From NCBI RefSeq assembly GCF_003314995.1, contig NZ_QNRH01000003.1, forward strand, positions 196,553 to 260,552: a stretch of 64,000 nucleotides of DNA. The letters are read 5' to 3'. This stretch comes from Pseudochrobactrum asaccharolyticum (GTDB lineage Bacteria; Pseudomonadota; Alphaproteobacteria; Rhizobiales; Rhizobiaceae). The first letter of the stretch is position 1; the number at the start of each line of letters is the position of its first letter. The position numbers and the translations under genes are program-made. Below are positions 48,294 to 64,000 of the stretch, piece after piece. Under the pieces are notes generated by a model that saw only the letters and a program-made list of their open reading frames with translations, was not told where the DNA came from and did no database searches.

Positions 48294-49716
<1,423 letters not shown>

Positions 49717-50201: not shown

Positions 50202-50215
50202 TTGATTCAGGTCAA
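50202..50215. promoter_or_regulatory. FNR/FixK-like site next to the NrdR boxes
   Basis: TTGATTCAGGTCAA matches the FNR-type consensus TTGAT-N4-ATCAA at 9 of 10 fixed positions. It lies 10 bp from the stronger NrdR box. It would give oxygen-dependent control of nrdIF; single matches of this kind also arise by chance. Confidence 0.35.
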
Positions 50216-53427: not shown

Positions 53428-54948
53428 CTACACAGTTAGCTGAAGGTCAACCAGAGTTTCGGCCTCATTGGCAAACTCTACAGCATAGGTCAGTTCACCT
53501 GGTGCAGCTGCATAGATCGTGAATAAGGACTGTCCTTTGCGCACATGATCGCCAAGCCGCACTTCCATCCGTATACCGGCACCGGTTGAGCGCGGTGCAC
53601 CGGCAAGTTTGGCCACGCGTGCAAGATTGCGGTTATCAATATTATGCACGATACCGTCAGCAGGAGCTGTCACTGTGTAAAAGTGCGGCGCAATCTCAGG
53701 AATTTTCAAACCGCCCTGAGCAATGCAAATATCGCGGAATTTTGCCCAAGCGCGGCCATCAGCGATTGTTGCTAAGGCAAGAGCAGTGCCCTGACCTTTT
53801 TCTGCAGCACCACCGATTTCGAGTGCTGCCCCTGCGAGTACGGCAGCACGTTCCCGCAAATCCTGCGGCGCTCCGTCTTCATTACGTAACACGGCCAGCA
53901 CATCCAATGCTTCAAGTGCAGGGCCAATGCCGTTCCCAACCGGCTGACTGCCATCAGTATAAAGACAGGCGACGGTCAGGCCGAACTCTTTGCCGACAGT
54001 GGTGAGCAGCTTAGCCAGTTTATCAGCCGCCTCAATACTTCTGATCTTAGCTGTGGGACCAACAGGAATATCAATCACCACATGGGTGGAACCGGCTGCA
54101 ACTTTTTTCGACAGGACAGAAGCGACAAGTTGCCCCTCCGTATCAATATCAAGATCGCGTTCTATACGAATGAACACGTCATCTGCAGGGCTGAGCTGGA
54201 CAGCTCCGCCCCATGCCATGCAGCCGCCTTGCTCTTTGACAACCTGTTTGAGCTTGCCCAGTTCCAGATTAACAGGGGTCATCGTTTCCATTGTATCTGC
54301 TGTGCCAGCAGGGGAAGTGATGGCGCGTGAAGATGTCTTGGGCATAGTCAGCCCGTGAGCTGTGACAATTGCCACCACGAGTGGTGTTGTACGATTACCG
54401 GGCAGGCCGCCGACACAATGTTTGTCGAGAACAATATCCTTGTTCCAGTTTAAACGCTCACCTGCACCGATCATGGCCTTGGTGAGATAGATCGTTTCTT
54501 GTGTATCAAGCGGCGGTGTTGCGCTGGCGGTGAGAAATGCGGCCAGATGCACATCTGTATAACGACGTGCCACCACGTCATCAATAATAGCGCTGAGCCC
54601 GTTATAGTCGAAACGGTTGCCGTAAATCCGGCTGCGAATATGGGAGAGCGATGTTAATGCAGGCGGGTGGGTTACTTCCACCGGATCACCTTCCTCAACG
54701 CCGAGCAAATCCCATGCCGTTTGCGATAAGCCGATCGTATCCAGAGCGAGCAGATCACTGTCGATCTGTAAGAGCTCGGCATAAACAGACCGGTCACCGG
54801 CATAGACCTGTACATGCGAACGCGAGGACAGCCCCGCTGAATGACAGGCCGGACAATCGGTACGCATGATAACAACCGCCTGATCATGGGTAAAAAGCCC
54901 TAATCGTTTGGCTTTCAGCGGCGGGTGATCACAGATAACGCTGCTCAT
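53428..54948 (-). CDS. Archaeal-type AMP / thymidine phosphorylase
   Basis: 506 residues. It has the extra N-terminal domain (about 1-95) seen in archaeal AMP phosphorylases and absent from E. coli DeoA (440). The nucleoside-phosphorylase core follows: DKHCVGGLPGNRTTPLVVAI, TSSRAITSPAGTADTMETM and EQGGCMAWGGAVQLSPADDV, then the C-terminal domain. Archaeal relatives phosphorolyse AMP, CMP and UMP to ribose 1,5-bisphosphate plus base; databases often call the bacterial ones putative thymidine phosphorylase. The start overlaps the metallo-beta-lactamase gene's stop by 4 bp. It is the last gene of an operon with PRPP synthetase-like, phosphoketolase and acetate kinase genes, which supports nucleotide catabolism. 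Confidence 0.88.
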   Translation of the reverse strand: MSSVICDHPPLKAKRLGLFTHDQAVVIMRTDCPACHSAGLSSRSHVQVYAGDRSVYAELLQIDSDLLALDTIGLSQTAWDLLGVEEGDPVEVTHPPALTSLSHIRSRIYGNRFDYNGLSAIIDDVVARRYTDVHLAAFLTASATPPLDTQETIYLTKAMIGAGERLNWNKDIVLDKHCVGGLPGNRTTPLVVAIVTAHGLTMPKTSSRAITSPAGTADTMETMTPVNLELGKLKQVVKEQGGCMAWGGAVQLSPADDVFIRIERDLDIDTEGQLVASVLSKKVAAGSTHVVIDIPVGPTAKIRSIEAADKLAKLLTTVGKEFGLTVACLYTDGSQPVGNGIGPALEALDVLAVLRNEDGAPQDLRERAAVLAGAALEIGGAAEKGQGTALALATIADGRAWAKFRDICIAQGGLKIPEIAPHFYTVTAPADGIVHNIDNRNLARVAKLAGAPRSTGAGIRMEVRLGDHVRKGQSLFTIYAAAPGELTYAVEFANEAETLVDLQLTV

Positions 54949-56303
54949 AGTTTAAATTCCTGATCCTGCCGGGGTACGATACTATCCCAGCCCAACTCGC
55001 GGCCAATCCGGATGCGCAGCCCTTCAGATGCATCTGGCTCACCATGAACGATGAATGTTTTTCTTGGCGGATGTTTAAAGCCGGAGAGCCAGCGGATCAG
55101 TTCATTCGCATCCGCATGACCGGAAAGCGTATCAATATGCGCAACCTCGGCATTAACCGGCACCCACATGCCATGAATTTTGAGCTCTTTCGCACCTTCA
55201 CGCAATGCACGTCCGCGTGTTCCTGCCGCCTGAAAACCTGCCAGCAGGATGGTATTTTTCATATCCGGTGCGTAATTCTTAAGGTGATGGAGAATACGAC
55301 CGCCTGTCGCCATACCGGAAGCGGAGATAACCACTTTCGGATAAGGATTGTTGTTGATCGCTTTGGAATCCTCGACCTCCTCCGTGTAGCGCGCGATTTT
55401 ATAAGCTTCGCGGGCATCATCCGGTGAAAGTTTATGATCCTGCATATGACGGCTCATCAATGTTGTTGCATCAATGGCCATCGGACTGTCGAGAAAGATC
55501 GGCACTGAACCTAAGCGTCCTGCCTGTTTCAGTTTCCAAAAATAATAAAGCAGCTCCTGCGCACGACCGACAGCAAAAGACGGGATCACTAATGTACCGC
55601 CACGCTTGATCGTTTTCTCTGTTATTGCGCCCAGAGCTTCGGCCGGATCGGTATGATCGTGCAGCCTGTTACCATAAGTGGATTCAACAACCACATAATC
55701 GGCTTCTTTGACTGAAACCGGATCCGGCATCAGCGGATGATTATAGCGGCCAATATCACCGGAAAATACGATACGTTTTCCGCCCCAGTCTATTTGCACA
55801 TTGGCGGCGCCGAGAATGTGACCGGCATGACGAAAACGAAAGCGCAAATCGTCAAGAATAGTAATGGTCTGGTCAAAGTCAGCGGTTGAAAAATGTCCCA
55901 GCGCAATTTCAGCATCACGTGCCGTATAAAGCGCTAATGCCGGTGCATGTTTTGTCAGTTTGTGCCGGTTGAGAAAATCGGCATCTTTTTCCTGCAAATG
56001 GCCGCTGTCTTTCAGGATCAGTTCGGCAACATCACGGGTTGCCGCAGTTGAATAGATTTTGCCGCGAAAGCCCTCTTTGACAAGACGGGGCAGATAACCG
56101 CTGTGATCCAGATGAGCATGGGTCAGAATAACAGCATCAATATCACGGGCAGGAATACTGAGACTTTCCCAGTTTAATTCACGCAGGTTTTTCAGCCCCT
56201 GAAACAAACCGCAGTCAATCAGTACATTATGCCTGCCATTTGAGAGCAGATGCTTGGAGCCTGTTACCGTTCCGGCAGCGCCTAAGGATTTTAATGTCAG
56301 CAT
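54945..56303 (-). CDS. Metallo-beta-lactamase / beta-CASP ribonuclease-like protein
   Basis: 452 residues from the ATG at 56301-56303 (GGAAAG upstream); the frame extends upstream inside the preceding gene without family match. MBL motif ILTHAHLDHSGYLPRL, then the beta-CASP and RNA-specific motifs: IPSFAVGRAQELLYYFWKL, VISASGMATGGRILHHL and FIVHGEPDASEGL. The build matches bacterial CPSF73-like RNases such as Thermus TTHA0252. Likely activity is endo- or exonucleolytic cleavage of RNA. The start lies 1 bp after the PRPP synthetase-like stop codon, and its end overlaps the phosphorylase start, so the three proteins are tightly co-produced. Confidence 0.9.
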   Translation of the reverse strand: MLTLKSLGAAGTVTGSKHLLSNGRHNVLIDCGLFQGLKNLRELNWESLSIPARDIDAVILTHAHLDHSGYLPRLVKEGFRGKIYSTAATRDVAELILKDSGHLQEKDADFLNRHKLTKHAPALALYTARDAEIALGHFSTADFDQTITILDDLRFRFRHAGHILGAANVQIDWGGKRIVFSGDIGRYNHPLMPDPVSVKEADYVVVESTYGNRLHDHTDPAEALGAITEKTIKRGGTLVIPSFAVGRAQELLYYFWKLKQAGRLGSVPIFLDSPMAIDATTLMSRHMQDHKLSPDDAREAYKIARYTEEVEDSKAINNNPYPKVVISASGMATGGRILHHLKNYAPDMKNTILLAGFQAAGTRGRALREGAKELKIHGMWVPVNAEVAHIDTLSGHADANELIRWLSGFKHPPRKTFIVHGEPDASEGLRIRIGRELGWDSIVPRQDQEFKL

Positions 56304-56304
56304 A

Positions 56305-57216
56305 TTACGCTCTTTCCTTTTCAGCAGCATTGATGGCTTCGGCCAGCAACTCTGCCACCGAGATATTGTTACTGGTATGCGGAACGCAGTCAGTGGAAAC
56401 GACTTTTTCCGCAATGGCACTCAGTCTTTCATAGGCATCATCAGCAAAGAGACCATGCACGACAACGCAGACAGGTTTAGCCAGACCTTGCTGTGCCAGT
56501 TGCTTGGCTGCTTCCACCATTGTGCGGCCGGATGAAGCAATGTCATCCACCAAAACCGGTGTTCTGCCCTGCCATTGTGAAAGATCGCCCATGTGAATTT
56601 CCACATTGCGGTCGCCGTAACGGGTTTTACGCAGCACGGTAAATGGTGCACCTGACAGCGCGCCAATCTGGCTCACCCACTGCTCACTTTCCTCATCGGG
56701 ACCGATCAGCAGTGGCTTTTCGATGTTGTGGCTGATCCATTTTGCCAGAACCGGTGCTGAAGCCAGACTGGTGGCCGGAATGGTATAAATCTCTGACAGG
56801 GCATGGTAGCGATGCAGATGCGGGTCAATGGTCAGCAAACTGTCAAAGGATGACGAGACAAGACGCGCGAATGTACGCGAGGTGATCGCTTCACCGGCAT
56901 TGAAACGCTTATCCTGCCGCATATAGGCCAGATAAGGTGTTACCAGATTGACAGAACGGGCTTTAAATTCGCGTGCTGCATCCGCCGCAAAAATCACCGG
57001 CAGGAAGTTCTCATTGGGATGTGCCAGTGTGCAGATGAGGTCCACATCGCGGCCTTCCACATCATCGAGAAACCGCAGATAACTCTCACCGTCCGGAAAA
57101 TTGCGGGTTTCCAGCGATCCAAGCTGATAATCACCTGTGGCAGCAATAGCGCGAGCCAGATCTTCATTGCCGGGCAGAGGAATGGTTAGACGTTTCTCAG
57201 CAGAATGCAAAGCCAT
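56305..57216 (-). CDS. Ribose-phosphate pyrophosphokinase (PRPP synthetase) homologue
   Basis: 303 residues from the ATG at 57214-57216; a GTG six codons upstream is an alternative, and both have weak ribosome sites. Motifs: TRNFPDGESYLRF, PYLAYMRQDKRFNAGEAIT, the metal-binding IDPHLHRYHAL, the catalytic-loop basic pair in LRKTRYGDRNVE and the PRPP loop VLVDDIASSGRTMVEAAK. It is diverged from housekeeping Prs (DDMIDTAGT is replaced by DDIASSGRT), so it is probably a second, specialised copy. It may link ribose 5-phosphate, PRPP and AMP/ATP in either direction next to the AMP phosphorylase. Confidence 0.87.
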   Translation of the reverse strand: MALHSAEKRLTIPLPGNEDLARAIAATGDYQLGSLETRNFPDGESYLRFLDDVEGRDVDLICTLAHPNENFLPVIFAADAAREFKARSVNLVTPYLAYMRQDKRFNAGEAITSRTFARLVSSSFDSLLTIDPHLHRYHALSEIYTIPATSLASAPVLAKWISHNIEKPLLIGPDEESEQWVSQIGALSGAPFTVLRKTRYGDRNVEIHMGDLSQWQGRTPVLVDDIASSGRTMVEAAKQLAQQGLAKPVCVVVHGLFADDAYERLSAIAEKVVSTDCVPHTSNNISVAELLAEAINAAEKERA

Positions 57217-57297
57217 ATTAACATATCCGTTCACTGTTCATCAGAATACAAACTGAAAGACCGGAGCGGCATGTACCGCTCCGGTAAATGCCTGCAA

Positions 57298-59688
57298 TCA
57301 GGCTTTGGCTCCGTGGCTATGCGGCCATTTCCAGTCACGGATTTCCGGCATATCCTCACCATGCTCACGCACATAGTCATGATGCTGCTGAAGCTTTTCC
57401 TGAAGAGACGCGATAATCGGCTCTGCTATACCGGCAGCCAAAGGCAGACGGTTAAGTGCTTCAATCGCCAGATGATAACGATCAAGTTCGTTCATCACAG
57501 CCATATCAAACGGCGTTGTAGTGGTGCCTTTTTCGATAAAGCCACGCACATGGAAATTCGGATGATTGGTGCGCTTATAAACCAGACGGTGGATCAGATA
57601 CGGATAGCCGTGATAGGCGAAAATCACCGGACGGTCAGTGGTGAAAAACGCATCAAACTCACTGTCGGCAATACCATGCGGGTGATGCTGCGGTGACTGC
57701 AGCGCCATCAGATCAACAATATTGACAACGCGGATGCGCAAATGCGGCAGCGCTTCACGCAGCATAGCTGTGGCGGCCAATGTTTCCATCGTCGGCACGT
57801 CACCGGCGCAGGCCATCACCAGATCAGGCTCCATACCATCTTCGCTACCTGCCCAGTCCCATTTGCCAAGACCGGCCTCACAATGCTTTTCTGCTTCATC
57901 CATGGTCAGCCATTGTGGAGATGGCTGCTTACCGGCAACGATCACATTCACGCGGTTCCAAGTTTTGAGGCAGTGGTCACCCACCCAAAGCAGCGTATTG
58001 GCATCCGGCGGGAAATAAACGCGGACGATATCGGCGCTCTTATTGGCGACCAGATCGACAAAACCCGGATCCTGATGGGAGAAGCCGTTGTGATCCTGTC
58101 GCCAGACATGGGAGGTCAGCAGATAGTTGAGCGATGAAACCGGCTTACGCCATGGCAGTTCGCGCGCGACCTGCAACCATTTGGCATGCTGGTTGAACAT
58201 GGAATCCACAATATGGATAAAGGCTTCATAGCAGGAGAAGAAACCGTGACGGCCTGTCAGCAAATAGCCTTCCAGCCAGCCCTGACACAAATGCTCACTC
58301 AGCACTTCCATAACGCGGCCATCAGCAGCCAGATGATCATCGCTGTTTAGTGTTTCTGCCATCCAGACGCGGTCGGTTGCTTCAAAAACACTGCCAAGCC
58401 GATTGGACGCCGTTTCATCGGGCCCGAAGACACGGAAGTTTTTATCCTCATCATTGAGGCGGAGGACATCGCGCAGATAATCACCGAGAATTTTGGTGGT
58501 TTGTTCCTGCACCGCTCCCGGTTCGGTAACATTGACCGCATATTTGCGGAAATCCGGTGTTTTCAGGTCTTTGCGCAGCAAACCGCCATTGGAATGCGGA
58601 ATAGCGCCCATGCGTTTTTCGCCACTTGGCGCGAGCGCGCGCAGTTCCGGTTTCAGCTTGCCGCTTGCGTCAAACAGGTCTTCCGGATCATAGCTGCGCA
58701 TCCAGTCTTCAAGGATTTTGCGGTGAGAATCATCGGCACGACAATTGGCAACCGGTACCTGATGGGAGCGCCAATGGTTCTCCACCATTTTACCGTCAAC
58801 CACTTTTGGCCCTGTCCAGCCTTTTGGGCTGCGCAGGATAATCATCGGCCAGCGCGGACGTTCCGGCGATTTAAGATCGGCCTGCTCTTTAATGGCTTTA
58901 ATACGGTCAAAAGCGCTGTCAAAAGTTGCAGCCATCAACTGATGCATTTTTTCGGATTCATGGCCTTCGACGAAAAACGGCTCATAGCCATAGCCGGTGA
59001 AAAGACTGTGCAGGTCTTCATCCGACATACGAGCAAGCAGGGTCGGATTGGCGATTTTATAGCCATTCAGATGCAGGATCGGCAGCACCGCGCCGTCGCG
59101 CTTCGGGTTGAGGAATTTGTTGGAATGCCATGCAGCCGCCAAGGGGCCGGTTTCGGCCTCACCATCACCAACAACACAGGCAACGACGAGATCAGGATTA
59201 TCAAAAGCTGCGCCGTAAGCATGAACGAGTGCATAGCCAAGCTCGCCGCCTTCATGGATGGAGCCCGGAGTTTCCGGAGCCACATGGCTTGGCACACCAC
59301 CGGGGAACGAGAACTGACGAAACAGCTTTTGCATGCCGCCAACATCTTCGGTGATGTCGGGATAGGTTTCCGTATAGGTGCCTTCCAGATAGGTATTCGC
59401 CACCATGCCAGGGCCGCCGTGACCGGGGCCACAGACATAGAGCACATCTTTGTTGCGCTTTTTAATGATGCGGTTGAGGTGCACATAGATGAAGTTCAAA
59501 CCGGGTGTTGTGCCCCAATGGCCGAGCAAGCGCGGTTTGACATGTTCAGGTTTTAAAGGCTCGCGCAGCATCGGATTTTGCATCAGGTAAATCTGGCCGA
59601 CGGAGAGGTAATTGGCTGCACGCCAATAGCGGTCGGTCAGTTTCAGCTGATCTGGAGTAAGCGGCTGGGCGCCAGTCTGATTATTCAT
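57298..59688 (-). CDS. Phosphoketolase (xylulose 5-phosphate / fructose 6-phosphate)
   Basis: 796 residues, full length. Thiamine-diphosphate enzyme that converts xylulose 5-phosphate plus phosphate to acetyl phosphate and glyceraldehyde 3-phosphate. Typical segments: [40 protein letters not shown], the ThDP motif [20 protein letters not shown] and [13 protein letters not shown]. The acetate kinase gene lies 16 bp upstream on the same strand, so acetyl phosphate can go straight to acetate plus ATP. The gap of about 80 bp to the PRPP synthetase-like gene contains no obvious terminator. Confidence 0.96.
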
Positions 59689-59704
59689 TCCGGAATTCCT
59701 TAAC

Positions 59705-60889
59705 CTATTGGGAGGATTGGTTTAAAACAGTGAGGGTTTCAGCGGCAATCACTTGCTCTTCATCAGTTGCGAGCATGAAAGCGGCGATTTTGCTTGATTG
59801 TGTGCTGATGCGGAAAGCATTCTTATTATTGGCCACCTCATCCAGTTCGACGCCCAGCCATTGTAATTTTCTGGCAATGAGGGCGCGGATTTCGGGCTGA
59901 TGTTCGCCAATACCGGCAGTGAAAATAATGGCATCCAACCCGCCAAGACTGGTCACCTGACGGCTGATTTCACCGGCAATGCGGGTGGTGAAAAGATCAA
60001 TCGCTTGTTTCGCCTCTGGTGCATCACTGGCCAGCAAGTCGCGGCAATCACCGCTGATGCCGGACACACCGAGCAGGCCGGAGCGATGATAAAGCATATC
60101 AGTCAGCTCATCGGTGCTCATATTCTGCTGGCTCAACAGATGCAGCAGCACACCGGCATCAATATTGCCGCAGCGTGTCGCCATCGGAATACCATCGAGC
60201 GTGGAGAAACTCATGCTGGTATCAACGCTTTTGCCTTCTCTAAGTGCGCAAAGGCTCGCTCCGCTACCAAGATGAGCAACAACGAGTTTCTTACGACCTA
60301 AATCCGGCTCAAGCTGAGTAAAATGTTGTGCAATGGATTGATAAGAAAGCCCGTGAAAACCATAGCGTTTGATGCCCTGATCGTGCATCGCACGCGGTAT
60401 GGCAAAACGGCGGTTCACATCCGGCATGGTGCGATGGAAGGCTGTATCAAAAGAGGCTGTTTGCAGAATATCAGGGAAAAGCTGGCGGATCGCTTTAATC
60501 AGCGCCAAACTTTTGGGTTGGTGGAGCGGCGCATAGGCCGACAACTCGTCAATGGCCTGAATTGAGCGATCATCAATCAATGCAGGGCCTGCAAAAACAT
60601 CGCCGCCATGCACAACACGGTGACCAATGGCTTTAATGCGGCTCAGGTCAATATGGGTTGAAAGCTTATCGAAAACTTCGCTCAACACACTGACAATATC
60701 CGCAGAATCCTCAGACTGCAGTTGCAAATCCAGCCGTTCTTTGCCGCGCTCCATATGAAAACTCAAAGGAGACGCGGCAAAATCAATGCCAGCTTTAGCG
60801 GATTTATGCAGAGACAAGCCGTCCCATTCAAAACTGCCGATTTTGACGGTCGATGATCCTGTATTGAATGTGAGAATTAAATCATTCAT
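59705..60889 (-). CDS. ackA: Acetate kinase
   Basis: 394 residues from the ATG at 60887-60889 (GGAAAG upstream; 12 further upstream codons do not match the family). Motifs: [47 protein letters not shown] and [15 protein letters not shown] with the catalytic Arg/Asn region. It makes ATP from acetyl phosphate produced by the neighbouring phosphoketolase. It sits between the exporter genes and phosphoketolase in one same-strand series. Confidence 0.94.
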
Positions 60890-60951
60890 TCCAAGTCTTT
60901 CCATAATCAGCAGCTTTGCAGGCAAAGTGAGGCAGGCTTTATTGTGTCAGA

Positions 60952-62064
60952 TCACCTCAGGAAGTTACGGAAACGTTTGAGCGCGAAGAAGAAGAGCACG
61001 GAACCGATAATCATGAGGGCTAGAAATTGCGGCCAGACCACGCTTAATCCTGCCCCACGGAACAGCACCGATTGCGCGAGAATAACAAAATGCGTGTTTG
61101 GCGCTGCCAGCATGATATTCTGAATGATTTCCGGCATGCTCTCACGCGGTGTCATCGCACCGGAGAGAACCTGCAACGGCAGCAGGATCAGCACAATCAG
61201 CAGCCCGAATTGCGGCATGGAACCGGCAATGGTTGCCAGATAAATGCCAAGACTGGTGGTGGCAAAAAGCTGAAGTGCTACCCCGAGCAGGAACAGGATA
61301 ATCGAGCCGTTGATCGGTACCGACAGCACGCCTTTGACAATGAACAGCAATGACATTGCCGTGGCAACCAGCACCACAAGCCCCATCGACCAGACCTTAC
61401 TGATCATGATCTCGATCGGGGTTACCGGCATCACCAGCAGATGCTCAATCGTGCCGTGTTCACGCTCGCGAATGAGTGCCGCACCGGTCAGGATGATTGA
61501 CAGCATCGTCACCGAGGCAATCACGTTGGTGACCGCCCCGAACCAGCCTTTGTTCAGATCCTGATTGAAGCGGGCACGCAGGTTTTGCTCAACCGGCATT
61601 TTGCTGGCACTGCGATAATGATTGAGAAACTCGCTCACTTCATTGGTTACAATGGCCTGCACATAGCGCCCGCCGCTAAAGGCCTGGCTCATACGCGTCG
61701 CATCAATATTCAGCTGAATGGTCGGATTGCGTCCGGCCAGAAGATCACGCTGGAAGTTTGGCGGAATATCCAGCGCAAATGTATCCAGACCGGTATCCAT
61801 GCGCTTGTCCATCTCATAGGTGGAGATAAGTTTCGGCGGCACAAAATAAGGCGGATAAAATGCGGTAGTAATCCGGCCGGAGATCGGGGACTGATCCTCA
61901 TCAACAATTGCGATTGCCGCATTGTTAAGGTTCTCCGGCATGGCTTTGGAAGCCGTATAGATTGCCAGTGTGAACGCATAGACAATCAGGATCATCAGCA
62001 TCGGATCGCGGGCAAGACCACGCAGCTCCTTGATGCCGAGACGGAATATATTGGAAATCCTCAT
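60952..62064 (-). CDS. ABC-2 type exporter permease (YhhJ-like)
   Basis: 370 residues from the ATG at 62062-62064, directly after the preceding gene's TGA (TGAGATG). One N-terminal membrane helix (about 25-45), a large periplasmic part with the IPPNFQRDLLAGRNPTIQLN segment, then five helices with the ABC-2 motif IREREHGTIEHLLVMPVTPI. Similar to YhhJ, which together with RbbA/YhiH and the adaptor YhiI forms an export system of uncertain substrate. It overlaps functionally with the neighbouring fused ATPase-permease, so the two probably form a heteromeric channel. Confidence 0.9.
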   Translation of the reverse strand: MRISNIFRLGIKELRGLARDPMLMILIVYAFTLAIYTASKAMPENLNNAAIAIVDEDQSPISGRITTAFYPPYFVPPKLISTYEMDKRMDTGLDTFALDIPPNFQRDLLAGRNPTIQLNIDATRMSQAFSGGRYVQAIVTNEVSEFLNHYRSASKMPVEQNLRARFNQDLNKGWFGAVTNVIASVTMLSIILTGAALIREREHGTIEHLLVMPVTPIEIMISKVWSMGLVVLVATAMSLLFIVKGVLSVPINGSIILFLLGVALQLFATTSLGIYLATIAGSMPQFGLLIVLILLPLQVLSGAMTPRESMPEIIQNIMLAAPNTHFVILAQSVLFRGAGLSVVWPQFLALMIIGSVLFFFALKRFRNFLR

Positions 62065-62065
62065 C

Positions 62066-64000
62066 TCAGCGCGCCTGTTTCTTGAGAAGAACAATACCCA
62101 GCACCATCAGCACCGGAATGGTTATCAGCAACATCAGGAAAGGCATGCCCAGATCAGAGAAGCTGAGCGCTTTCGAGAAAGTTCCGCGCGAGATGGTGGT
62201 GAAGTAGGTTGTCGGATAAATCTGACCGATCAAAGCCCCCGCACCACGCAAAGAAGAAACCGGATCAATGATACCCGAATATTGCACGGCAGGGATCAGC
62301 GTCATCAGCGCTGTACCGAAAATAGCGGCGATCTGACTGTTCATGAAAGTAGAGAGCACCAGCCCCATACCTGTCGTGATAATCACATAGAGCAAGGCAG
62401 CCGTGGAATAGGTCAGGAAACTGCCGGTAAACCGCACCTGAAAGATGAATACCGCGAAGGCGGTCAGCATCAGGAAGTTGAAGAAGGCAAGGCCGACATA
62501 AGGCAATTGCTTGCCGATCAGAAACTCGAATTTCGTGACCGGTGTCACGTAGAAATTGATAATCGAGCCCAGTTCTTTTTCGCGCACAACACTCAGAACC
62601 GAGAGCATGGCCGGAATAACCAGCAGCAACAGCGGAATAACTGCAGGCACCATTGCCACCAGACTTTGCACATCCGGATTATAGCGATAGCGGATTTCCA
62701 TATTGAAGCTAGTGAGGGCTGTGGTGTTGCCATAGAGCTCGCGGGCTTTTTGCGACAGCCAGTTCAGATGCGTGCCTTGCACATAGCCCTGAATGGTTTC
62801 AGCACGGGTCGGCATTGCACCGTCAATCCATGCGCCGACTTCAACAGGACGCCCATGCTCAACATCGCGGGCAAAGTTCGGCGGTATCTCAATCGCCAGA
62901 CTGATCTCGCCGTTACGCATCCGCCTGTCGAGATCGTCATAATCAAGGATCGGATCTTTTTCGATAAAATAGCGCGAGCCGGAGAACTGGCGGATATAAT
63001 CACGGCTGATCGCTGTGTCGTCGCGGTCAATCACCGCAAAACTTAAGTTATTAACATCGAGATTGATACCGTAACCAATCACAAACATCAGGATAACACT
63101 GCCAAGCATAGCCAGTGTGGCGCGGATCGGATCACGCCGCAGTTCCAGCGTTTCGCGTCTGGTATAGGCGAGCATGCGGCGCAGATCAGGCATCCAGCTT
63201 GCAGACGGAGCCGGAAGTTCCCGTACCCGTTTTACAGTTTGTGCTGTCTGTTCTGCAGCTGCTGCATTAGCTGGTTGCGGTGCAGGCGCAGTTTCACCAA
63301 TGGCATCTTCAAGATAGCCGATGAACGCCTCTTCCAGTGTTGCAGCCGAACGGCTGGCAGTGATCGCAGCCGGTGTATCGCTGATTAGCACTTTACCGGC
63401 ATGCATCAGGGAAATCCGGTCGCAAAGCTCTGCTTCATTCATGAAATGGGTGGAGACGAAGATCGTCACATTATCTTTGCGCGAAAGATCGGCGAGGATT
63501 TGCCAGAAGGCATCACGCGCCACCGGATCAACGCCAGAGGTCGGCTCATCGAGAATGAGAATATCCGGCTGATGGATCAGGGCGACCGCGAGCGACAAAC
63601 GCTGACGAATACCGAGCGGCATATCATCCGGATAGATATCCATCATCTCTGTCAGGTCAAAACGCTGCGACAGTTCTGTAATACGCTGCTTGGTTCTGGC
63701 TTCTTCCATGCCAAATAATTTGGCGTGGAGTTCCAGATTTTGATGCACCGTCAGTTCTGAATAGAGTGAGAAAGCTTGTGACATGTAGCCGACGCGACGG
63801 CGGATATCGATATCTTTGGTATCAACTTCACGGCCAAACAGGCGGGCAATACCGTCACTTGCAGGCAGCAAACCGGTCAGCACTTTCATGGTCGTGGACT
63901 TGCCGCAACCATTGGAGCCGAGAAAGCCGAAAATCTCGCCGCGCGGAATACAGAAGCTGACATTATCAACGGCCGTAAATTTGCCAAAACGCACGGTGAC
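62066..64000 (-). CDS. ABC exporter ATPase-permease fusion, C-terminal part (RbbA/YhiH-like)
   Basis: 645 codons visible; the N-terminus lies beyond the right edge. The first bases at the edge read through ([14 protein letters not shown]), so a GTG at 63992-63994 is not the true start. An ATPase domain comes first: Walker [14 protein letters not shown], signature [16 protein letters not shown], Walker [22 protein letters not shown] linker follows, then an ABC-2 permease domain with a periplasmic loop ([20 protein letters not shown]) and the [20 protein letters not shown] motif. RbbA-type proteins carry two ATPase domains; the first is probably off-window. It is translated just before the YhhJ-like gene and precedes the acetate kinase/phosphoketolase series. 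Confidence 0.9.

Follow-up and report, generated by a model that had tools for sequence, protein, structure and literature searches.

A near-obligate gene pair for an archaeal-type nucleotide phosphorylase and a divergent PRPP-synthetase homologue: a candidate low-oxygen salvage module in Pseudochrobactrum asaccharolyticum

Organisation of the locus

The window analysed here, a 64,000-nucleotide stretch of Pseudochrobactrum asaccharolyticum DNA (contig NZ_QNRH01000003.1), carries towards its end a tight series of genes for an acetate kinase (ACK), a phosphoketolase (XFP), a homologue of phosphoribosyl diphosphate (PRPP) synthetase (PRPS), a beta-CASP metallo-beta-lactamase RNase homologue (MBL) and an archaeal-type phosphorylase (TP). 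An earlier note on this DNA (the original prediction) had ordered the five into a single route from RNA or nucleoside 5'-monophosphates (NMPs) to acetate and ATP. By computation, we describe the gene content of the locus, the signature of TP, the altered loop of the PRPS homologue, the linkage of these two proteins across genomes, a set of PhnN–TP fusions and a regulator box; features that together suggest a candidate module for salvage at low oxygen, with TP and PRPS at its core.

Working through the window with open reading frame (ORF) and family scans, we find all five genes where the original prediction had placed them, each on the minus strand (Table 1), and the junctions among the last three as close as it had described: the gaps measure 16 bp between ACK and XFP, 63 bp between XFP and PRPS, 1 bp between PRPS and MBL, and a 4-bp overlap of MBL with TP. 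PRPS starts at a GTG codon (alternative in-frame ATG at 57216) and ACK at a TTG (alternative in-frame ATG at 60889). The unit extends upstream of ACK, through genes for an ABC-2 permease and an RbbA-type ABC protein to one for HlyD, which lies past the window end. A hairpin occupies the XFP/PRPS gap (−29.2 kcal/mol in a 66-nt context; z −5.17, with 0 of 200 shuffles equally stable; weak U-tract), and may represent a partial terminator, a processing site or a stability element. A single transcript for all five genes is therefore not certain: the operon originally proposed is supported by the tight spacing, but opposed by the hairpin and by the absence of a conserved order (see below).

Table 1. 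Features of the locus, with the PhnN fusion genes found in other genomes (L-numbers denote locus records)
Feature	Position	Strand	Basis or remark
TP, archaeal-type NMP phosphorylase homologue, 506 aa	53428..54948	-	NF003338, TIGR02645, PDB 4ga5, signature columns
MBL, beta-CASP metallo-beta-lactamase RNase homologue	54945..56303	-	Pfam Lactamase_B, Beta-Casp, RMMBL over cut-offs
PRPS homologue, subfamily NF005537 (PRK07199), rewritten diphosphate loop GPDEESEQW	56305..57234	-	NF005537 score
Hairpin in XFP/PRPS gap	57260..57285	-	11-bp perfect stem
XFP, phosphoketolase	57298..59688	-	NF003621 1640 bits (cut-off 1295); XFP_N, XFP, XFP_C
ACK, acetate/propionate family kinase	59705..60925	-	NF005462 666.7 bits (cut-off 486)
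ABC-2 type permease, unit member	60952..62094	-	ABC2_membrane_3; overlaps RbbA gene
RbbA-type ABC protein, 939 aa in L119	62066..64000, extends past window end	-	family scan; HlyD next, outside window
PhnN–phosphorylase fusion genes	L124:8331-10433; L127:8001-10154; L128:7965-10091; L129:7830-9824	+	single ORFs

TP is a phosphorylase of the archaeal type

TP scores well above the curated cut-offs of two phosphorylase families (NF003338, 667.9 bits against 434; TIGR02645, 600.8 against 434.6). Its match in the PDB to 4ga5, which we take to be the Thermococcus kodakarensis enzyme, reaches 343 bits, the best thymidine phosphorylase scoring 127.5 bits. Where conserved columns discriminate the archaeal enzyme (represented by the one sequence, 4ga5) from DeoA, TP is archaeal-like in 30 and otherwise in 15; the loop PKTSSRAITSxAGTAD, common to TP and the archaeal enzyme, is found among the 30. 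TP also carries an N-terminal domain ahead of the helical domain, such that residues 15–498 align to residues 7–489 of 4ga5; of 22 DeoA-type sequences, 21 align over at most 30 residues of TP positions 1–90 and one over 82. A separate DeoA-type match is present elsewhere in the same genome (G000:C5:218332). On the PDB scores, the diagnostic columns and this separate match we reject a plain DeoA, and the archaeal assignment made in the original prediction holds, in the sense of an NMP-phosphorylase type. On this assignment, TP would produce ribose 1,5-bisphosphate from NMPs.

The PRPS homologue has a rewritten diphosphate loop

The PRPS homologue belongs to the NF005537 subfamily (413.2 bits, cut-off 322), with every PRPP-synthetase Pfam domain over its cut-off. 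Both phosphoribosyltransferase-fold domains are present, and the adenine, catalytic and ribose 5-phosphate motifs are kept: FPDxE, RQD and DxH in each of 76 family sequences and D[DA]xxSxxxT in 74, with the catalytic-loop Lys and Arg and the Asp-Asp loop also retained. The diphosphate loop has the form GPDxESxQW in all 76 NF005537-type sequences, as against DxG(G/A/D) in four solved PRPP synthetases. The same genome encodes an ordinary PRPS with an SPDVGG loop, and a DeoA-type match as described above, so that the TP and PRPS of the operon appear as second, specialised copies.

TP and PRPS form a near-obligate pair

Across 200 evenly sampled Pseudomonadota genomes (E-value thresholds of 1e-100 for TP and 1e-70 for PRPS; kinship ignored), TP and an NF005537-type PRPS occur together in the same 24 genomes, while neither is present in the other 176. 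The 24 represent 16 genera, with nine sharing one family code, and one of them has two copies of each gene. All 25 TP copies have a same-strand PRPS copy no more than 4 kb away; in 23 the model matches are separated by at most 110 bp. In a Bacteroidota sample of 198 genomes TP was found twice: in the seed genome, and as a partial match with no PRPS in the 19.9 kb taken.

Partners were counted in 80 genome loci, the best 80 of at least 587 TP-profile matches and thus leaning to close relatives: 72 have PRPS, 59 MBL, 13 XFP and 11 ACK. Restricting the count to the 51 loci that extend 9 kb or more to each side gives 46, 36, 9 and 6, respectively. By comparison, neither PRPS nor MBL lies within 1.5 kb of the DeoA-type genes of 22 loci. 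The five genes stand together, in any order, in nine of the 80 genome loci and in one of three plasmid loci (Criblamydia), and the exact order seen in the window recurs in none of these 83 loci, many of which end at contig ends. One conserved five-gene operon is thus not supported as proposed, TP and PRPS alone making up the stable core; we reject the five-gene block as the conserved unit on this result, on the scarcity of XFP and ACK (13/80 and 11/80) and on their repeated gain or loss.

That history can be followed on a tree of TP (built by a quick method that returned long-branch warnings), on which at least 10 changes are required to account for XFP or ACK in the cluster (present in 20 rows, lacking in 42), 8 for MBL (63 and 15) and 4 for PRPS (76 and 5). 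TP–PRPS is therefore a stable, near-obligate pair, with MBL a frequent companion and XFP/ACK an optional module that has been gained or lost repeatedly. XFP is also found in nine of the 24 TP genomes as against 23 of the 176 that lack TP (Fisher p 0.005, again with kinship ignored). As partners, then, the RNase, XFP and ACK of the original prediction stand in part: MBL is at 59 of the 80 loci and XFP/ACK join repeatedly, but none is a constant member.

Candidate consumers of ribose 1,5-bisphosphate

PhnN converts ribose 1,5-bisphosphate to PRPP (PMC9700705, PMC11452294). In four loci, from a Rhizobiaceae-family genome, Variovorax, Pacificitalea and Paraburkholderia, we find PhnN and TP fused within single ORFs. 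Both parts exceed the NCBIfam cut-offs in the 700-aa Rhizobiaceae-family ORF and in the plasmid-borne Variovorax fusion; in that of Pacificitalea, likewise on a plasmid, PhnN and NF003338 are over cut-off and TIGR02645 is under, and that of Paraburkholderia is one open frame by tblastn. Since PhnN consumes ribose 1,5-bisphosphate, a TP homologue fused to it and acting one step earlier should make that compound; of the evidence on the product of TP this is the strongest, and together with the archaeal signature it makes a strong case for ribose 1,5-bisphosphate. The gene for the PRPP user nadC lies directly upstream in three of these loci (the fourth record is unannotated), and within the stretch examined around the four, tblastn detects no PRPS homologue. 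A fusion together with nadC likely constitutes a salvage route of its own, from NMP to PRPP to NAD.

As to the next step in loci of the window's type, the P. asaccharolyticum genome has no match to RuBisCO (PF00016) or to the IF-2B/ribose 1,5-bisphosphate (R15P) isomerase family (PF01008), and among 47 TP genomes hand-picked from the 80 loci (mostly isolates, with some metagenome-assembled genomes) none has an R15P isomerase over the TIGR00511 cut-off, 12 having weaker matches; a route through these two enzymes was rejected accordingly. PhnN, with up to 56 first-look candidates scored per genome, is over cut-off in 11 of the 47 (14 if weaker matches are counted), leaving 36 without; outside the fusion proteins, for which it stands, PhnN was therefore rejected as the usual next step. 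P. asaccharolyticum itself has a single PhnN that passes the cut-off, away from TP and in an apparent phosphonate (phn) cluster whose neighbours were named by eye. With R15P isomerase over cut-off in none of the 47, PhnN in 11, and the PRPS homologue a constant partner with its loop rewritten, we consider this homologue the likely consumer of ribose 1,5-bisphosphate in window-type loci. The original prediction had suspected it of the step from ribose 1,5-bisphosphate to ribose 5-phosphate; it is now the better candidate, albeit with a PhnN encoded elsewhere in the genome. The accompanying proposal, that phosphoketolase replaces RuBisCO, is borne out as to the absence of RuBisCO, but XFP, present in 15 of the 47 TP genomes, is one optional outlet rather than the step that defines the route.

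The RNase homologue

The closest PDB relative of MBL is the ribonuclease TTHA0252 (256.9 bits), and the metal-binding motifs HAHLDH, GHILG, SGD, GRILHH and VHGE are all present, consistent with a beta-CASP RNase homologue that is predicted to degrade RNA. It scores far below the NCBIfam cut-offs of NF045584 and TIGR03675, so that an identity as CRISPR Cas14 or as an FttA/aCPSF1 orthologue was rejected. An MBL-superfamily protein of the same kind, by annotation, is found in the Burkholderia lxa locus (PMC6127331).

A predicted low-oxygen regulator box

A perfect FNR/FixK palindrome, TTGACTATAATCAA (pattern TTGAYNNNNRTCAA), is positioned 64–77 bp before the ATG of HlyD, the first gene of the unit (L119 6561-6548); no other perfect match occurs in the 19 kb of this stretch, against an expectation of 0.15. 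We would predict from this that an FNR/FixK-type regulator acts on the unit when oxygen falls. In Bradyrhizobium diazoefficiens, the published tables place the same gene types in the operons bll3117-bll3116-bll3115 (TP, PRPS, MBL) and bll2518-bll2517 (XFP, ACK) (PMC9104804, PMC6515984); each has a predicted FixK2 box and deletion of fixK2 lowers both, by factors of 6.6 to 30.6 in the four genes given (PMC9104804), whilst the microoxia table includes all of these genes except bll2517 (PMC6515984).

Within the window, just one further perfect TTGAYNNNNRTCAA site is present, at 50202-50215, some 490 bp upstream of a gene pair (48294-49716) in which nrdI is followed directly by the small chain of ribonucleotide reductase, with no large-chain gene between them (the search being confined to the window). 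Over the surrounding 48–52 kb, G+C is at its minimum for the window (0.455).

A candidate pathway and its alternatives

We infer from these features a low-oxygen salvage module, together with its substrates, the direction of its reactions, its ATP yield and its feeding by the RNase; a reading we regard as evenly poised. As an FNR/FixK-type regulator turned the unit on at falling oxygen, the beta-CASP RNase would degrade RNA and so supply NMPs, which TP would split with phosphate into base and ribose 1,5-bisphosphate. The PRPS homologue would then shift the C1 phosphate of the latter to AMP (or ADP), giving ribose 5-phosphate and ADP (or ATP); in effect, PRPP-synthetase chemistry reversed, with one phosphate fewer. 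In this strain, the ribose 5-phosphate would be isomerised to xylulose 5-phosphate, from which phosphoketolase would yield acetyl phosphate and glyceraldehyde 3-phosphate, and acetate kinase would finally make ATP.

The altered loop of the PRPS homologue would suit a C1 monophosphate as substrate (ribose 1,5-bisphosphate + AMP <-> ribose 5-phosphate + ADP, or the ADP/ATP version). Extended to the whole subfamily, the suggestion is that NF005537 proteins are ribose 1,5-bisphosphate:AMP (or ADP) phosphotransferases rather than PRPP synthetases, each an obligate pair with TP that stores the glycosidic-bond energy of NMPs as ADP or ATP. We put this forward tentatively, as a possibility somewhat short of probable. 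If true, oxygen-starved cells would draw down their AMP and RNA by this route, raise their energy charge and ferment the ribose to acetate.

Several observations weigh against the salvage module as read here. Moving a phosphoryl group from a sugar 1-phosphate onto AMP or ADP is thermodynamically uphill at standard conditions, and would need high AMP and removal of ribose 5-phosphate. TP itself, at 498.7 bits, lies below the curated cut-off (535) of the AMP phosphorylase equivalog TIGR03327 and is therefore not assigned to it. Nor is the loop signature without exception, as a Bradyrhizobium septentrionale homologue from outside the set of 76 reads GPDAESEPW, with the Gln of the motif replaced by Pro; and since in the class III PRPP synthetase of M. 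jannaschii the loop likewise has neither its second Gly nor its basic residues, an altered loop need not signal a new substrate. The PRPS homologue is not nearby in eight of the 80 TP loci, including the full locus L086 with its TP-ACK-XFP arrangement (of the others, L099 has a short PRPS-like remnant and L105 ends at a contig end), and phosphoketolase is absent from 32 of the 47 TP genomes. The strong hairpin between XFP and PRPS could split the transcript, and FNR-type boxes are only weakly enriched near the TP genes of relatives (found at 5 of 76 loci, where 1.5 would be expected, and at 2 of 76 in a downstream control). Finally, the open-licence PMC literature, as far as its text was available, yielded no assayed member of either the TP or the PRPS subfamily.

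Each of the two core proteins also admits other roles. TP might supply ribose 1,5-bisphosphate to the PhnN encoded elsewhere, for conversion to PRPP, with PRPS interconverting PRPP and ribose 5-phosphate; the net outcome would be a recycling of base and ribose phosphate, or else the catabolism described above reached along a different path. The PhnN over cut-off in this genome, the four fusions with nadC upstream in three, and a bug27-nadC-phnN arrangement in Variovorax (PMC11452294) would all be in keeping with this, but PhnN is over cut-off in just 11 of the 47 TP genomes (some weak candidates being unscored in some genomes), that of P. asaccharolyticum sits in its apparent phn cluster and not with TP, and the fusion loci lack a PRPS homologue in the stretch examined, as if PhnN and PRPS were alternatives. 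We therefore think such recycling unlikely. The PRPS homologue could instead be an ordinary second PRPP synthetase, making PRPP or ribose 1,5-bisphosphate, with TP running in the synthetic direction (base + ribose 1,5-bisphosphate -> NMP + phosphate) and so rebuilding nucleotides after anoxia. Phosphorylases are reversible, the Pfam domains are those of a PRPP synthetase and most TP genomes have no phosphoketolase; set against this are the ordinary PRPS already in the genome, a loop altered in 76 of 76 sequences, and the frequent RNase partner and recurrent phosphoketolase and acetate kinase, which suggest breakdown. Such base salvage strikes us as quite improbable.

The database names, in turn, would make TP a pyrimidine nucleoside or thymidine phosphorylase, its neighbours tied to it by low-oxygen regulation alone, and it is true that the base-site residues Ser277 and Lys281 are common to TP and DeoA and that known low-oxygen regulons combine unrelated genes (PMC6515984). 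The 30 columns shared with the archaeal NMP phosphorylase and the separate DeoA-type match in the genome speak for a different activity, and the PhnN fusions would be senseless were the product ribose 1-phosphate; we hold the annotated role to be very unlikely.

Relation to known systems

The salvage module resembles the archaeal pentose bisphosphate pathway, or NMP shunt, described in Thermococcus kodakarensis with NMP phosphorylase, R15P isomerase and form III RuBisCO (PMC9700705, PMC12628685). The likeness lies in a first step by a homologous enzyme, the phosphorolysis of NMPs to ribose 1,5-bisphosphate; unlike the archaeal case, neither RuBisCO nor R15P isomerase has a match in this genome, the PRPS homologue coming next and phosphoketolase and acetate kinase forming the outlet. 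The original interpretation is partly supported, and gains when recentred on a shunt without those two enzymes whose conserved pair is an NMP phosphorylase and a divergent PRPP-synthetase homologue. Halophilic archaea provide a precedent for using ribose 1,5-bisphosphate with no RuBisCO step, in a non-carboxylating pentose bisphosphate pathway, but through R15P isomerase, ribulose 1,5-bisphosphate phosphatase and an aldolase, with no NMP phosphorylase in the account available (PMC9700705); none of this applies here. The phnN route of E. coli (PMC9700705, PMC11452294) shares the intermediate, and the PhnN–TP fusions link to it, yet window-type loci have the PRPS homologue in PhnN's place, PhnN being missing from most TP genomes examined. 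The phosphoketolase–acetate kinase pathway has the same two enzymes, adjacent in the window, where they are tied to a nucleotide-ribose source. In the FixK2 microoxia regulon of B. diazoefficiens a single low-oxygen regulator governs all five gene types (PMC6515984, PMC9104804), although these form two separate operons and are tabulated there, in the text available, with no pathway proposed.

On the TP–PRPS pairing in bacteria, the open-licence PMC literature (in the text available) yielded the Bradyrhizobium tables, the Burkholderia lxa papers and the archaeal work, and neither a described role nor a proposal of this route. Were the reading correct, many Pseudomonadota and some Bacteroidota, Verrucomicrobiota and Chlamydiota would carry a RuBisCO-free bacterial counterpart of the archaeal NMP shunt, its pair mislabelled in databases as thymidine phosphorylase and PRPP synthetase. 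A cluster of low-oxygen genes would thereby gain a function, and ribose 1,5-bisphosphate would have, beside phosphonate breakdown, a second source and sink in bacteria; a new enzyme activity might be added to these. The central claim hinges on two purifiable proteins.

Other genes near the pair

The surroundings of the module vary. On the Rhizobium rosettiformans plasmid its neighbours are arginine deiminase genes and an adenylate kinase, on that of Criblamydia they are GlgP and an ATP-cone protein, and in Bradyrhizobium septentrionale they are universal stress protein genes. The commonest non-core neighbour of TP-PRPS-MBL is a P-type ATPase with HMA domains (L059:3096-5633 and relatives), at 36 of the 80 loci; a polyphosphate kinase 2 (PPK2; L066:1834-2697 and relatives), of a type that also acts on adenylates, is near TP in 11. 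Between PRPS and MBL on the R. rosettiformans plasmid (L032:15940-18330) lies a gene whose product, a highly divergent phosphoketolase-like protein, shares 22.7% identity with the XFP of the window and is annotated as a xylulose 5-phosphate 3-epimerase; proteins of 22–24% identity recur near TP in several loci.

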